Of a stretch of DNA of 36,665 nt, positions 4,613 to 11,038 are shown one piece after another. A model generated the notes under the pieces. It worked only from the letters and a program-made list of their open reading frames with translations, did not search any database and was not told the DNA's origin. Position 1 is the first letter of the stretch. Each line of letters starts with the position of its first letter. The DNA comes from Betaproteobacteria bacterium (GTDB taxonomy: Bacteria; Verrucomicrobiota; Verrucomicrobiia; Methylacidiphilales; UBA1321), in contig CAJCIA010000036.1 of assembly GCA_903970275.1 (NCBI GenBank), positions 1 to 36,665 on the forward strand. Reading direction: 5' to 3'. Both the position numbers and the translations under genes were made by a program.

Positions 4613-5038
4613 ATGAGCCGCGAGTCGCGCAAGAAAATCGACGTGGGCGGAGCTCTGGCGCCCGCACTGCAGAATCCTTTTGCCGCGCTTTCCGGCCTGG
4701 AGGCACTTCAAAATCTGCCGCCGGCGCCTGAGCCGCCCCAGCCCCTAGTCGCGCCGGCCGTGGCCAAACCGCCGCCGCGGTTTCGCGGGCGGCTCGTCCT
4801 GCGGCGTGAGACGAAGGAGCGCGGCGGCAAGACGGTGGTGGTGATCAGCGGCTTTGCCGAAGGCGTGCCCGGCGCGAACGCCGTGATGATTGCCGACCTG
4901 GCCAAGGAACTGAAGGGCAAGCTCGGTTGCGGCGGCACCTTCGACCGCCAGGAGATCACGCTGCAGGGCGACCGCGCCGTGGCCGTGGCCGCACTGCTGG
5001 AGCAGATCGGCTTCCACGTGCGCGGCGTGACGAGCTAA
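4613..5038 (+). CDS. SUI1/eIF1-family translation factor (YciH-like)
   Basis: A 141-residue protein. The first ~60 residues are a Pro/Ala-rich, probably disordered extension (PPAPEPPQP). The C-terminal ~80 residues form a SUI1 domain: GGKTVVVISGF, LAKELKGKLGCGGTF, EITLQGDRAVAVAALLEQIGF. In bacteria this YciH-type domain is thought to bind the small ribosomal subunit and affect initiation fidelity or stress translation, by analogy with eIF1. It follows the PfkB gene by 8 bases and converges on the membrane protein gene at 5062. Family is sure; cellular role is inferred. Confidence 0.85.
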   Translation: MSRESRKKIDVGGALAPALQNPFAALSGLEALQNLPPAPEPPQPLVAPAVAKPPPRFRGRLVLRRETKERGGKTVVVISGFAEGVPGANAVMIADLAKELKGKLGCGGTFDRQEITLQGDRAVAVAALLEQIGFHVRGVTS

Positions 5039-5061: not shown

Positions 5062-6663
5062 CTACTTCCGGGCGAAGACCACGATGTCCGGGTAATCGGT
5101 CATCCGGTAGTGCTCGTAAATGTAGCCGCGCAGATTCGGCGGCATGAAGGTCATGTCGGCTATCCGGCTGAAGCCGCGGACAAAGATGCAAGTCGTGAAC
5201 TGCTCGTCGATAAAGCGCTGCACACGCGGATCGAACGGAGCGTCGTCGGGCAGCCAGCGCGACGGGCCCACGAGAAAATCTGACGAGACCAGGCCCATCG
5301 GATATTGCCCACCGAGATGCGACGAGGGCACCTTCTCCCACCACAAGGGAAGGCCTTTCGGAAACGGCTGATCGTAGGCCGCGTAGCCAAATTCCAGGCG
5401 CGGGCCAAAAAAGAATTTGGAGTGCGAGCTGGAGGCGGTGGGCGCTTGGACAACATGGCCGATTTGCTCGAGAACGCGGAACAACCGGTCCTCCGTCTCC
5501 AGTCCGCGGAAGAAGGCGGGGTCCTGGATGACGTGGGTCGGTGGGGTGCCCTCCCCGAACAGCCCGGCGCCCATGCTGAAAACCCGCGCGCGCGTGAGGC
5601 CGAAGGCGAGGCCGAGCCCAAGTAGAAACAGCGTGCAGATCAGGCCGATGGAGCCCCACAGATAAAGCGGCGGACGACGCTTCACCCCGGGTAGTGCCAG
5701 CGCTATCAGCATCAGCGGATAAAGTGTGTCGATCGTCTTGAAGTCGTTGTTGGTCGCGATCTGAATGCAGGACGTGACCAAGGCCATGCCCAACCAGAGC
5801 GTCAGGTCGCGCTTTCGGGCGGCATCGTCCTGCGCCCAGATGAGGCCCCCGGCGACCAGTGTGACAATGACGACCAGTTGAATACCGAGCAGGTGCTCGG
5901 CCGGCAGCGACGAGATCGCGCAATAGTAAGTCCACGATCCGGAGGAGACGCGGACGGAGAACTCTCGGAGCAACTGCAGATAGGCGAAGGGCGAGATGCG
6001 TAGAATCAGCAGGAGCAGTCCGTCCACCAGAGCAGCCCCGGCCAACGCGGCCAGGGCGGGTAGGCGCGTGGCGGGTCGCAGGAGAAGGATCACCACCAAA
6101 AAAAGGCATACCGGCGCAGCCGTGTTGATCTTGCTCAGCATCAGCAACGTCACCGCACAACCCAGCGAGGCGGCGTAGACCCGGTCCTTGGGCGCGCGGG
6201 CCAGTCCGTAGCCGGACAGCATCGCCAGGAGGGCGATCAGGTCGGTCGTCTGGTTGTACCACCACCAGGAGAGAGGCAGCAGCGTGACGCCTTGGAAGGC
6301 CACGGCGTAGAAAAGGGCCAGCCACGGTTGGCAACTGATGCGGCTCAGCAAAAGAAAGCTCCAGGTGAAGGAGAGCAGCGCAAACACGCAGAGGAGCCAG
6401 TTCAAGGAGGACCACGAGGCGCCTCCGACCACGAAGGCCAAACCCGGGGCGAGGAAGAACAGCGGAGGCAATGGATTAGGCAGGTCCAGATAGGGAATGC
6501 TGCCGTGCGCCACGGCCCAGGCCGTCAGCACCAGCGTGCCGCCATCCTGACCCCCGTAGTCGATGAAGCCGAAGTGGCGGTGCCACGCAAGCATGCCTAC
6601 AGCCAGAACCAGATAGGCAAGCGCCACGGGGCCACGTGCTTGCATCCGTTCGAGAAGCGACAC
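5062..6663 (-). CDS. Polytopic membrane protein, GT-C glycosyltransferase-like
   Basis: A 533-residue integral membrane protein with about ten hydrophobic helices in the first ~370 residues. A ~150-residue soluble C-terminal region is probably periplasmic. After the first helix comes a loop with DYGGQDGG, then PYLDLPNPLPPLFFL. This layout recalls GT-C/ArnT-type lipid-linked sugar transferases, where an acidic pair follows the first helix, but the canonical DE/DD pair is not evident. The C-terminal part (FFGPRLEFGYAAYDQPFPKG, CIFVRGFSRIADM) is unknown to me. It faces the SUI1 gene (23-base gap) and is divergent from the penicillin-binding protein gene. The membrane call is sure; the transferase call is tentative. 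Confidence 0.6.
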   Translation of the reverse strand: MSLLERMQARGPVALAYLVLAVGMLAWHRHFGFIDYGGQDGGTLVLTAWAVAHGSIPYLDLPNPLPPLFFLAPGLAFVVGGASWSSLNWLLCVFALLSFTWSFLLLSRISCQPWLALFYAVAFQGVTLLPLSWWWYNQTTDLIALLAMLSGYGLARAPKDRVYAASLGCAVTLLMLSKINTAAPVCLFLVVILLLRPATRLPALAALAGAALVDGLLLLILRISPFAYLQLLREFSVRVSSGSWTYYCAISSLPAEHLLGIQLVVIVTLVAGGLIWAQDDAARKRDLTLWLGMALVTSCIQIATNNDFKTIDTLYPLMLIALALPGVKRRPPLYLWGSIGLICTLFLLGLGLAFGLTRARVFSMGAGLFGEGTPPTHVIQDPAFFRGLETEDRLFRVLEQIGHVVQAPTASSSHSKFFFGPRLEFGYAAYDQPFPKGLPLWWEKVPSSHLGGQYPMGLVSSDFLVGPSRWLPDDAPFDPRVQRFIDEQFTTCIFVRGFSRIADMTFMPPNLRGYIYEHYRMTDYPDIVVFARK

Positions 6664-6757: not shown

Positions 6758-9700
6758 GTGACCAAACGCACCGATGGAGCGGCCACCGTGCGTTCCGGGG
6801 GTTCGATCGATGGGGCCGACGGTTCGGCCACCCGCGGCAAATCGGGGGCAAATCGACCCTCCGCACCCGCTCCGAAGCGCAAGCGCTCGTTCTGGCGCAA
6901 GCTGTGGATCTGGACGCAGGTCGGCGTGGCGGTCCTGGCCATCGCCGCGTCCATTGCGGCCTACTTCATCTATCAGCAGGCGCAGATTTACTACCAGCGG
7001 GCCGAGAAGATCGACCTGAACAAGCTGAACGACGTCAATGAGACGTCGGTCTTCCTCGACGTGAACGGCGAGGAACTGGGCCGCATCTTTGTCGAGGACC
7101 GCATCGTCCTCAAACCCGACCAGATTCCCGACCTGATGCGCAAGGCGGTGATGGCCGCGGAGGACCGGCGCTATTACGAGCACGGCGCGATCGATTACTG
7201 GGGCATCCTGCGCGCGCTGCGGGAGAACTTTGGCAAGAAGGGCCGCGTGCAGGGCGGCAGCACGATCGAGCAACAGCTGGCCAAGCACCTGATCGGCGAT
7301 TTCTCCCGCACGCTGGATCGCAAGTTCCTCGAGGCTTTCGTCGCCATGCGGCTGGAGCAGCACTACACGAAGGACGAGATTCTGAATTACTACCTGAACC
7401 GGATTTATTTCGGGAAGGGCTACTTCGGTGTCGAGTCGGCGGCCAAGGGCTACTTCGGCAAGGACGCGAGCCAGCTCAGCGTGGCCGAATGCGCGACCCT
7501 GGCGGGCATCATCCGCGCGCCGGTCAGCTCATCCCCACGGACCAACATCGGGCAGGCGCGCTCGCGGCGCGACCTGACGCTCTACCAGATGCGGCAGCAG
7601 GGCTTCATCACGCCGGAGGAATACCACCGCGCCATCGACACGCCCATTCGCGTAATTCCGGCCAAGCCCTCCGGCCTGCAGACCTTCGTCATGGCCCAGG
7701 CGGTGAAGGAAATGGAGCAGATCCTTTCCATCGAGGGCACGGAGGAAATGCCGCAGGGCCTGACGGTGCGGACCAACATCGACCTGCACCTGCAGCGCGC
7801 GGTGGAGGACCAGATGGCGCAGCATCTCAGCGCCATCGAGGACGCGGCGAATGCGACCAGTCCCGCCGCGGTGCCGGCGCTCAACCCCAAGATGCAGCCG
7901 GCGCGGCAGCCGCTGCAGGGCTCGGCCATCGTGGCCGATCTCGCCACCGGCCGGGTGCGCGCGTGGGTGGGCGGGCGCGACTTCCTCAAGAACCAGTTCG
8001 ACCACGTCTCCATGGCGCGGCGGGAAAACGGCGCGTTGCTACAGCCGGTCATCTACGGCCTGAGCTTCGACAAGCTGGGGCTTAATCCGGCGTCGATGAT
8101 CAATTCCTCGTACCTGGATTCCAGCGTGACCGCCTCGCCCGCCGACCTGGCCCTGGGCAATCCGAACACCGACCTGACGAAGCTCTTTCTCTCCGTGCAG
8201 GACGCCATGGCACTGGGCAATCGCGCGGCGGCTACGCGGGTTGGGCTACAACTCGGCCCGCAACAGGTGACGCAGTGGCTAAAAAGCGCGGGGGTGGAGG
8301 AGCGCATCCCCACGGGCAAGAGCAACGTCTTCAACCCGGAACCGATGACGCTGGGTGACATCGCCTCGCTCTACCAGGTGCTTGGCAACGACGGCATTCA
8401 CCGCAAGCTGAAGATCATCCAGTCCATCACCTCGCAGGACGGCCAGGTGCTCTACGACGACACCAAGTCGGACCATGACGAGGATGGTCACCTGCTGGAC
8501 ATCGTGGACGATGAGCAGCTCACGCTGACCCTGCAGAACGCGCTGCGTGTCGGCTTTGCCCGCACGCTCACGCACGACTACAACCTGCGCGCGCCGATCG
8601 CCGGCATGCCCGGTTACTCCGAGGGTTATCGGGATGCCTGGTTCGTCGGTTACACGCCCAAGCTGCTGGCGGGCGTTTGGGTCGGCTACGACAACTCGCA
8701 GCCGATTGGCTCAAAGGCGGTGGCGGTGCGTTCCGCCGTGCCGCTCTGGGGCGACATCATGCGCGAGGTGCTCGGCCGCACCAACGGCGGCTCGGCCTTC
8801 CCGGTGCCCGAATCGCTCACCAAGGTGGAGATTGACCGCGCGACCGGAGCGCTGCGCGGCCTGGCCGGGCTCGCCCCGGCGCCGGGCGACATCTTCGTTT
8901 ACCTAAAAAAAGACCAGCTGGACGCCGCCAGCCAGGCCGACCCGCAGCAAAAGATGCAGGCGCCGCAGCAGTGGTCGGACTGGCTCACCACCATGTTCAA
9001 CGACGCGGATGAGACCGGCCTTTCCGACGAGGAACTGACGCCGGGCGCGCAGGACAAGCGCTCCAACATTATTCCCGCGCTGGCGGAGTACAAGATGCCC
9101 GGCCTGCGCGGCAGCATCGTATCGGCGGACGGAACGGTTTATGCCACGATGCGCAATCAGCAGAACCTGGTGGTGAAGTGGCCGGCGGCGGGCGAGTCGA
9201 CCACGGACGCTGACATCGTGGCGTGGATGCGCGCGCGTTTCGACGAGGCGAAGAAGGCAATCGGCGCCGAGGTGACGATCAGCGACAAGGACCTGCTCGC
9301 GCAATATCAGACGCAGCGCTACCAGCCCTTCACGGTCGTTGAAGACATCACGCCCTACCAGGTCGACCAGATCCGCCAGGCGGGGCTTGAGGCGAAGGGC
9401 TTTGGCTTTGTCGGGACGCCCATCCGCATCTACCCGAAGGGAACCGATCTGGCGCATGTCATTGGCTACCTCTCCCGCGACCAGCAGCGGAACAGGGGCA
9501 AGTACCTGAGCGGCGATGTCATCTACGATCGCTACAAGGGCGCGGCGGGACTCGAGAAGGTTTTCGATGCCGACATGATCGGCAAGGAAGGCAGCTTCAT
9601 GATCTCCACCACACCGGATGGCTACGCGCGCTCGGCAGTGGTTTCCAAACCGCCGACCTACGGCGGCACGTTGCGCCTGACGATCGATTCCAAGATCCAG

Positions 9701-11038
9701 GCCTCGGCGGAAAAGGCGCTCAATCGCAAGCGCATGGATGCGTGGGTCATGATGGACATCCACAACGGCGACGTGGTGGCCATGGCCTCGCACCCGACCT
9801 TCGACCCGAATATCTTCCTGCCCACCATCGCGCCGGACGAGTGGGCGCTGCTGAACGGCGATCAATACAACCCGCTGCTCAATCGCGCCATTGACGCGCA
9901 GTTCCCGCCCGGCTCGACCTTTAAGACCGTGACTTCCATCGCGGCGATGGTCGCGGGCGTGTTCGACCCAAACTGGGTGGTGCATTGCACCGGCTATTTC
10001 GACCTCGGGAACATGCACATGAACCTGAAGGAGGAAGCCGGCCACGACGTCTCCTACAAGGAGGCGCTGACCCATTCGTTCAATACCTACTTTGCCAACT
10101 TGGGCCTGAAGGTTGGGCGCGACGTGCTGCTCGACACGGCGCGCAGTTTCAACTTCGGCAACAAAACGGGCGTCTCCCTGCCGGGTGAGCTCCCGGGGCT
10201 GATTCCCGATTCGGAGTATATCCTGCGCACACAGCATCGGGATTTCGGCGGCGGCGACACGGTGCTGACAGCCATCGGCCAGGGCGCGGTCCTGGTCACG
10301 CCCATCCAGATGGCCGACTACATGGCGGCGCTCGCCAACGGCGGCACGGTCTATCGCCCGCGGCTGGTGAAGGAGGTCGACGATCAGGACGGCAAGGTCA
10401 TCCGCGAGATTCCGACCGACGTCGATCGCACCGTCACGCTCGATTCTCCCTACATGGCCAACCTGAAGGAAGGCATGATCAACGTCATCGACGAGGGCAC
10501 TGCCACGGTGGTGCACCGCGATGACATGAAGATCGCGGCCAAGACCGGAACGGCGCAGGTCGGCACGAAAGCCAAGCCGCGGCAGGTGGCGTGGCTCTGC
10601 GGTTATCTGCCGGCGGATAATCCCCAGTATTCCTTCGCGGTGATGATCCAGGGCGAGGATTCTGATAACCATGGTCTCGGGTTGGACGACGGTTTGCTCG
10701 GCGGTCGCGAAGGCGGCGAGATCGCGGCGCACATCTTTGACGATGTTTATGGCCCGCCGCCGAATGCCAAGGCGCGCGCGGAACAATTCGAGGATTACAA
10801 CAAGACGCCGAATCTTGCCCCGGCGCAGCCGCTGGCCGACAAGGACAAGCCGGCGGATGACACCGACTCCACCGACAAGCCGGACGTGGCCGCCAAGCCG
10901 CCGGAAACGGTCACGGCGCACGCGACCGAGGTGACTGACGACGACAGCGATGCGACCGGCATGGGCCCGAACGGCCAGCGCGAGACCAAGCCGGTGTCAT
11001 CCCACGGCGCGCCGGTGAACTCATCCTCGAAGCGGTAG
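6758..11038 (+). CDS. Tripartite penicillin-binding protein: GT51, inactive class A transpeptidase, class B PBP2-like transpeptidase
   Basis: A single 1426-residue frame. It has a basic cytoplasmic tail, one membrane helix (about 52-73), and a GT51 domain with EDRRYYEH (Glu135), GGSTIEQQLAKH and KFLEAFVAMRLE (Glu192), intact for lipid II polymerisation. A class A transpeptidase fold (about 380-740) keeps scaffold motifs such as DAWFVGYTPKLLAGVWVGYD. Its SxxK Ser is Ala426 and the Lys is Gln429; SxN reads G487-N-R; KTG reads M617-P-G. From about residue 782 a class B PBP follows: a PBP2-type dimerisation region, then PPGSTFKT (Ser1053, Lys1056), SFN (Ser1107) and KTGTAQ (Lys1262). The last ~90 residues are an acidic, Pro-rich tail. 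It should polymerise and cross-link periplasmic peptidoglycan. The GTG start at 6758 has no clear ribosome site; a TATAAG lies at 6747-6752. Architecture is seen directly; function is inference. Confidence 0.9.
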   Translation: MTKRTDGAATVRSGGSIDGADGSATRGKSGANRPSAPAPKRKRSFWRKLWIWTQVGVAVLAIAASIAAYFIYQQAQIYYQRAEKIDLNKLNDVNETSVFLDVNGEELGRIFVEDRIVLKPDQIPDLMRKAVMAAEDRRYYEHGAIDYWGILRALRENFGKKGRVQGGSTIEQQLAKHLIGDFSRTLDRKFLEAFVAMRLEQHYTKDEILNYYLNRIYFGKGYFGVESAAKGYFGKDASQLSVAECATLAGIIRAPVSSSPRTNIGQARSRRDLTLYQMRQQGFITPEEYHRAIDTPIRVIPAKPSGLQTFVMAQAVKEMEQILSIEGTEEMPQGLTVRTNIDLHLQRAVEDQMAQHLSAIEDAANATSPAAVPALNPKMQPARQPLQGSAIVADLATGRVRAWVGGRDFLKNQFDHVSMARRENGALLQPVIYGLSFDKLGLNPASMINSSYLDSSVTASPADLALGNPNTDLTKLFLSVQDAMALGNRAAATRVGLQLGPQQVTQWLKSAGVEERIPTGKSNVFNPEPMTLGDIASLYQVLGNDGIHRKLKIIQSITSQDGQVLYDDTKSDHDEDGHLLDIVDDEQLTLTLQNALRVGFARTLTHDYNLRAPIAGMPGYSEGYRDAWFVGYTPKLLAGVWVGYDNSQPIGSKAVAVRSAVPLWGDIMREVLGRTNGGSAFPVPESLTKVEIDRATGALRGLAGLAPAPGDIFVYLKKDQLDAASQADPQQKMQAPQQWSDWLTTMFNDADETGLSDEELTPGAQDKRSNIIPALAEYKMPGLRGSIVSADGTVYATMRNQQNLVVKWPAAGESTTDADIVAWMRARFDEAKKAIGAEVTISDKDLLAQYQTQRYQPFTVVEDITPYQVDQIRQAGLEAKGFGFVGTPIRIYPKGTDLAHVIGYLSRDQQRNRGKYLSGDVIYDRYKGAAGLEKVFDADMIGKEGSFMISTTPDGYARSAVVSKPPTYGGTLRLTIDSKIQASAEKALNRKRMDAWVMMDIHNGDVVAMASHPTFDPNIFLPTIAPDEWALLNGDQYNPLLNRAIDAQFPPGSTFKTVTSIAAMVAGVFDPNWVVHCTGYFDLGNMHMNLKEEAGHDVSYKEALTHSFNTYFANLGLKVGRDVLLDTARSFNFGNKTGVSLPGELPGLIPDSEYILRTQHRDFGGGDTVLTAIGQGAVLVTPIQMADYMAALANGGTVYRPRLVKEVDDQDGKVIREIPTDVDRTVTLDSPYMANLKEGMINVIDEGTATVVHRDDMKIAAKTGTAQVGTKAKPRQVAWLCGYLPADNPQYSFAVMIQGEDSDNHGLGLDDGLLGGREGGEIAAHIFDDVYGPPPNAKARAEQFEDYNKTPNLAPAQPLADKDKPADDTDSTDKPDVAAKPPETVTAHATEVTDDDSDATGMGPNGQRETKPVSSHGAPVNSSSKR

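Follow-up and report, generated by a model that had tools for sequence, protein, structure and literature searches.

Can one polypeptide cross the border between class A and class B penicillin-binding proteins (PBPs)? By a basic rule of cell-wall synthesis, class A PBPs possess their own GT51 polymerase and class B PBPs are reliant on SEDS proteins. The question is raised by a gene on contig CAJCIA010000036.1 of GenBank assembly GCA_903970275.1, from a bacterium of the UBA1321 lineage of the Methylacidiphilales (Verrucomicrobiota); the whole 36,665-nucleotide stretch of the contig that was analysed is referred to below as the window. This gene, here called the hybrid, encodes in order a membrane helix, a GT51 glycosyltransferase, a class A transpeptidase-like domain, a PBP2-type dimerisation domain and a class B transpeptidase. 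Both halves belong to known families, and it is their combination that crosses the basic class A/class B border.

A GT51 domain and a class B unit in one chain

The hybrid gene is a single uninterrupted frame with a GTG start, encoding 1426 amino acids followed by a stop (Table 1). A sequence-only reading of the window had proposed this frame, together with one N-terminal helix, an intact GT51 domain and a complete PBP2-type dimerisation and transpeptidase unit, and each of these was borne out. Pfam recognised Transgly, PBP_dimer and, twice, Transpeptidase (the C-terminal match being the better one), a hydrophobic stretch marks the helix, and the motifs of the GT51 and class B domains are in place. 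NCBIfam aligned PBP_1a_fam to residues 115-672 and pbp2_mrdA to residues 777-1299, the latter with a score of 421 bits, which lies below the NCBIfam equivalog cut-off of 455. The two sides of the junction agree in their G+C content at each codon position (0.65/0.44/0.88 against 0.62/0.43/0.85), which marks the hybrid as one coding frame. Foldseek, given an AlphaFold model of residues 104-1303, likewise matched PBP1b and PBP1A across some 640 columns (637 for PBP1b) and PBP2 across about 540. Reading of residues 672-781 revealed no membrane-length hydrophobic stretch, leaving the class B unit without a helix of its own.

As in class A bifunctional PBPs (PBP1A/PBP1B, TIGR02074 PBP_1a_fam), the helix is followed by a GT51 domain with all of its motifs and then by a class A transpeptidase fold; the hybrid differs from them in lacking SxxK, SxN and KTGT in that fold, and in the complete class B unit appended to it. 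With PBP2/MrdA (TIGR03423) it shares a dimerisation domain and a transpeptidase carrying SxxK, SxN and KTGT, whereas the class B helix and an adjoining rodA are absent, a GT51 domain is fused, and the hybrid forms a clade separate from the mrdA genes of its own genomes.

The sequence-only reading had also assigned a class A transpeptidase fold. The fold is indeed present, but its catalytic motifs are lost. Intact class A PBPs carry the catalytic Ser and Lys within RQxGSxxKP and have KTGT as the third motif, whereas the window hybrid reads RENGALLQP and MPGY, with GNR in place of SxN. The SxxK lysine is replaced in all readable hybrids (by Gln in the majority, in L015 by Tyr and in L040 by Ser), the serine has become Ala in most but is retained in L068, L147, L150 and L182, KTGT is lost in all readable hybrids, its Lys almost always having become Met, and motif comparison shows SxN to be degenerate across hybrids. 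Ordinary class A PBPs from the hybrid-bearing families retain their catalytic motifs. The persistence of Ser in some hybrids whose Lys is gone suggests that loss of the lysine preceded loss of the serine. GT51 motifs are intact in every hybrid with a readable GT51 part, as are the class B SxxK and KTGT in all readable hybrids (the latter as KSGT in L151).

The class A transpeptidase of the hybrid is thus a pseudo-enzyme, predicted to be catalytically dead in every hybrid. Its ratio of nonsynonymous to synonymous substitution (dN/dS) is about 0.10-0.14, like that of the dimerisation and class B domains, and linkers reach 0.26, as estimated from closely related pairs in which synonymous sites are partly saturated; we therefore regard it as a retained pseudo-enzyme and not a decaying one. 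With this domain predicted dead, the chain joins one predicted polymerase (GT51) to one predicted cross-linker of class B type and should not be read as a double synthase of both classes; its domain content supports the earlier suggestion that the protein would bring its own GT51 polymerase to a class B cross-linker.

Degenerate transpeptidases were also observed in class A PBPs of about 840-900 amino acids from the Verrucomicrobiota families f13, f18, f22 and f108 (L041, L042, L051, L052, L056, L183 and L184). These proteins have GTxFTP or GTAMQP for GSxxKP, with KPGT/KSGT in some, and form a separate clade in which the loss was apparently independent.

Table 1. Coordinates of the hybrid gene and its parts in the window, and of partner genes at other loci
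Feature	Position	Strand	Basis
Complete hybrid gene, from GT51 through the pseudo-transpeptidase of class A type and the dimerisation domain to the class B transpeptidase	6758..11038	+	Frame, Pfam, NCBIfam; same chain in 17 further genomes
N-terminal membrane helix, the only one, at about residues 47-72	6896..6973	+	Hydrophobic stretch; position kept across hybrids
GT51 glycosyltransferase, residues 104-278; EDRRYYEH, GGSTI, RKFLE, YLN intact	7067..7591	+	Pfam PF00912 (Transgly), 2.3e-58; motif table
Degenerate class A transpeptidase-type domain, residues 385-672	7910..8773	+	PBP_1a_fam match to 672; motif loss in all hybrids; purifying selection
Lost SxxK site: ALLQ, residues 426-429	8033..8044	+	Alignment with intact class A PBPs
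Lost SxN site: GNR, residues 487-489	8216..8224	+	Alignment with intact class A PBPs
Lost KTGT site: MPGY, residues 617-620	8606..8617	+	Alignment with intact class A PBPs
PBP2-type dimerisation (pedestal) domain, residues 781-956	9098..9625	+	Pfam PF03717 (PBP_dimer), 1.7e-19
Class B transpeptidase, residues 996-1304; SxxK 1053-1056, SxN 1107-1109, KTGT 1262-1265 intact	9743..10669	+	Pfam PF00905 (Transpeptidase); motif table
C-terminal low-complexity tail, Pro/Ala/Asp/Thr-rich; sequence and length vary among hybrids	10715..11035	+	Hybrid alignment
Partner genes in apparent operon with the hybrid	L063:2132-4330, L064:2204-4330, L066:1395-3956, L068:1585-4035, L245:4228-6384		

The neighbours of the hybrid gene in the window are a membrane protein gene and a cyclase gene, and no rodA adjoins it. 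The former (5062-6663, minus strand), directly upstream and divergent, encodes a 533-residue multi-pass membrane protein with no Pfam match. A 141-residue SUI1-family translation factor with an N-terminal extension is encoded at 4613-5038 (plus strand), following the genes for ThiE and for a PfkB kinase.

Distribution and origin of the hybrid

The host assembly (2.93 Mb in 271 contigs, 87% complete) is one of 18 genomes, from seven Verrucomicrobiota families, in which the architecture is present. All seven other genomes of the host genus carry it at 64-69% identity, two of these copies being cut by contig ends; it also occurs in three more genomes of the family and in one genome from each of two other families in the order, and a profile built from eleven hybrids found matches in additional families of the class. 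The carriers are little-studied soil and freshwater bacteria, among them Verrucomicrobia bacterium LW23 (locus L066; deposited without a MAG label), Tous-C9LFEB and several Candidatus Methylacidiphilales assemblies. Apart from contig ends, the chain is uninterrupted in all other carriers: neither two separate genes nor a stop near residues 750-780, the pattern that the sequence-only reading had named as evidence against itself, was seen in the seven genomes of the genus or in ten further genomes. The recurrence of the same chain across the 18 genomes rules out an assembly fusion. Genomes of family f95 contain two hybrid copies each (C104 and C323 in G469; C286 and C104 in G454).

Most of the order lacks the hybrid, as do nearly all genomes in a 388-genome sample of the phylum. 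The hybrid is likewise missing from one family of small complete genomes in the same order, which we take, as a guess only, to be probably the Methylacidiphilaceae. A motif-based contig scan, which fusions of independent origin would escape, found none outside the Verrucomicrobiota.

The N halves of the hybrids form one clade (100/100) inside the Verrucomicrobiota class A PBPs, and the C halves form one clade (100/100) that stands apart from the mrdA genes of the same genomes and is related to Verrucomicrobiota PBP2-type proteins. The monophyly of each half points to a single old fusion from which all hybrids would have arisen. Opitutae-type class A PBPs with degenerate transpeptidases were rejected as the source of the N half, as they form a separate clade and their losses look independent.

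One complete genome, G018, has neither the hybrid nor the partner gene described below, and encodes a standalone PBP2-type protein with a signal peptide (L017:1339-3255). This protein falls within the hybrid C-half clade (97/93 with L015) on a long branch, and the only GT51 protein of G018 is a normal one. It probably lost its GT51 half secondarily; the alternative, an unfused ancestor that is sister to the hybrid C halves, is less favoured by the tree but compatible with the approximately unbiased test (p 0.075).

A probable partner: a secreted protein with a Lon-like domain

In LW23, Tous-C9LFEB, HJP_bin11 and L068, the gene before the hybrid on the same strand encodes a secreted protein of 700-850 residues. 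Foldseek and profile search both recognise the Lon proteolytic fold in the first part of this protein; the remainder is helical and has no match. In seven genomes, which represent several families (G008, G009, G010, G012, G017, G449 and G469), this partner gene adjoins the hybrid on its upstream side, and at three loci the stop and start codons overlap in a four-base ATGA. A profile of the partner matched 15 of the 18 hybrid genomes and one of 366 others (p about 4e-23, with kinship not corrected for).

The single match in a genome without the hybrid, G459, was rejected as a true partner: its protein falls, together with copies from G454 (C538), G469 (C18) and G449 (C77), in a branch where the Ser and Lys of the Lon domain are intact. 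When this branch is set aside as paralogues, a decision made after the data were seen, 14 of the 18 hybrid genomes have the partner and none of the 366 others does (Fisher p about 2e-22 across 384 genomes that are not independent). In the hybrid-linked branch the catalytic Lys is lost (Arg in most) and the Ser is often lost too, these two residues being the catalytic pair of Lon. Compared with Lon/S16-domain proteins, the partner shares the proteolytic fold and differs in being secreted, in the loss of these residues and in that no AAA domain was found.

The predicted structure of the partner was poor (predicted local distance difference test (pLDDT) 50, four sequences), and the Lon-like part alone was used. 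We propose that the protein is probably periplasmic and binds or regulates the hybrid. Within the paralogous branch of secreted Lon-domain proteins, L228, L233, L236 and L241 retain both catalytic residues, Ser and Lys (DGPSAG, QKxAAAK), which would make them periplasmic Lon-like proteases.

Proposed role beside the SEDS machinery

Besides the hybrid, the host genome encodes two GT51 proteins, an FtsI-like PBP and an mrdA-type gene next to rodA; this separate mrdA/rodA pair, whose presence the sequence-only reading had proposed to check, lies at a contig end on a contig other than that of the hybrid. The hybrid genomes tested have two SEDS proteins each, except the incomplete host metagenome assembly, which shows one, and the other hybrid genomes tested each have at least one further GT51 protein. 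The sequence-only reading had suggested that the hybrid is perhaps a SEDS-independent elongation or division enzyme; the idea that it stands in for RodA/FtsW is not supported, given the two SEDS proteins kept in hybrid genomes; the hybrid is an additional enzyme and not a replacement for the SEDS machinery, and as an enzyme it may be SEDS-independent. In two nearly complete genomes, G024 (f9) and G013 (f3), no GT51 domain was found, and these organisms may rely on SEDS polymerases only.

We consider it likely that the hybrid is a self-contained, membrane-anchored peptidoglycan synthase of GT51/class B type that includes a scaffold domain, and whose activities, scaffold role, coupling and control by a partner we infer from the evidence above. 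The GT51 domain would convert lipid II into glycan strands, the inactive class A domain would provide a scaffold or docking surface that keeps the class B unit by the strand exit, possibly also signalling between the two, and the class B unit would join the emerging strand to the existing wall by cross-linking. The hybrid could thus be pictured as a class A bifunctional PBP with its cross-linking passed to a covalently attached PBP2, or as a PBP1A-PBP2 pair made permanent with the competing class A site removed. In most lineages the pseudo-Lon protein would bind or regulate it, and it would act alongside the normal RodA-PBP2 and FtsW-FtsI pairs and class A PBPs. The fuller proposal of a third peptidoglycan machine, with GT51 and class B domains in one chain, coupling through the pseudo-transpeptidase, pseudo-Lon control and independence from SEDS proteins, is offered tentatively, at somewhat short of an even chance.

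There are precedents for such teamwork. E. coli PBP2 binds PBP1A and raises its glycosyltransferase rate about fivefold, and the PBP2 transpeptidase helps to attach new strands to the sacculus (PMC4632607). That complex likewise teams a GT51 polymerase with a PBP2-type cross-linker, but as two non-covalently associated proteins with both transpeptidases active. Division in C. difficile is driven by a class A PBP and its class B companion (PMC12539705). The SEDS-class B pairs (RodA-PBP2, FtsW-FtsI) also have one polymerase per class B cross-linker, whereas the polymerase of the hybrid is GT51, of another fold, and covalently joined.

Several observations weigh against the self-contained synthase. 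An AlphaFold model of residues 104-1303 (pLDDT 68.6, predicted template modelling score 0.43) fixes the folds moderately and does not fix the mutual placement of the halves. Two hybrids depart from the class B consensus, with SYD for SxN in L008 and the KSGT of L151. The partner gene is unlinked in the host genus, where it lies on another contig, and its profile has no match in the window's own, incomplete genome. The class B relative kept by G018 without a GT51 half shows that the halves are not strictly inseparable. Finally, strands from transpeptidase-dead PBP1A were not cross-linked by E. coli PBP2 in vitro when sacculi were absent (PMC4632607), which indicates that a GT51 partner may not suffice and that something more, for instance an existing wall or the partner protein, may be needed.

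Among the alternatives, an unlikely one is that the GT51 half does the work while the class B half serves chiefly to place it, through docking of the dimerisation domain on MreC/RodA-type or FtsW-type machinery, so that the hybrid delivers a class A-type polymerase to a SEDS complex. Such docking would fit the PBP2-like C half with its complete dimerisation domain, the retention of two SEDS proteins, and the C. difficile class B PBP, which is non-catalytic in division and complexed with a class A PBP (PMC12539705). However, the class B motifs are kept almost without exception in a domain as constrained as the rest, neither of which pure docking would need, and the class B unit, which begins on the periplasmic side, lacks the usual SEDS-packing membrane helix. 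We regard as quite improbable that the chain is cleaved after export into a GT51-pseudo-transpeptidase part and a free class B part, the fusion merely equalising their amounts: although the linkers are the least conserved regions and G018 has a standalone secreted class B relative, the linker has no apparent cleavage motif, its segment KVEIDR...FVYL is itself conserved, and the released class B part would be without a membrane anchor. An assembly artefact or a sporadic, unimportant gene fusion is scarcely credible, since the many metagenome assemblies among the carriers are set against 18 genomes in seven families, shared motif losses and one clade for each half.

The sequence-only reading did not recognise this domain order as a described system, and we found no description of it in the full-text literature searched, which excludes most subscription journals and all preprints, and the passages searched of a paper on division in the superphylum do not mention the hybrid. 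The class A/class B rule is here broken by a natural protein that is both old and conserved, and whose class A transpeptidase is silenced in all known members. In it a pseudo-transpeptidase is preserved by selection in what would be a structural role, and the hybrid points to a previously unknown partner protein. It also makes testable whether a class B transpeptidase can use the strands of a GT51 enzyme in the same chain.

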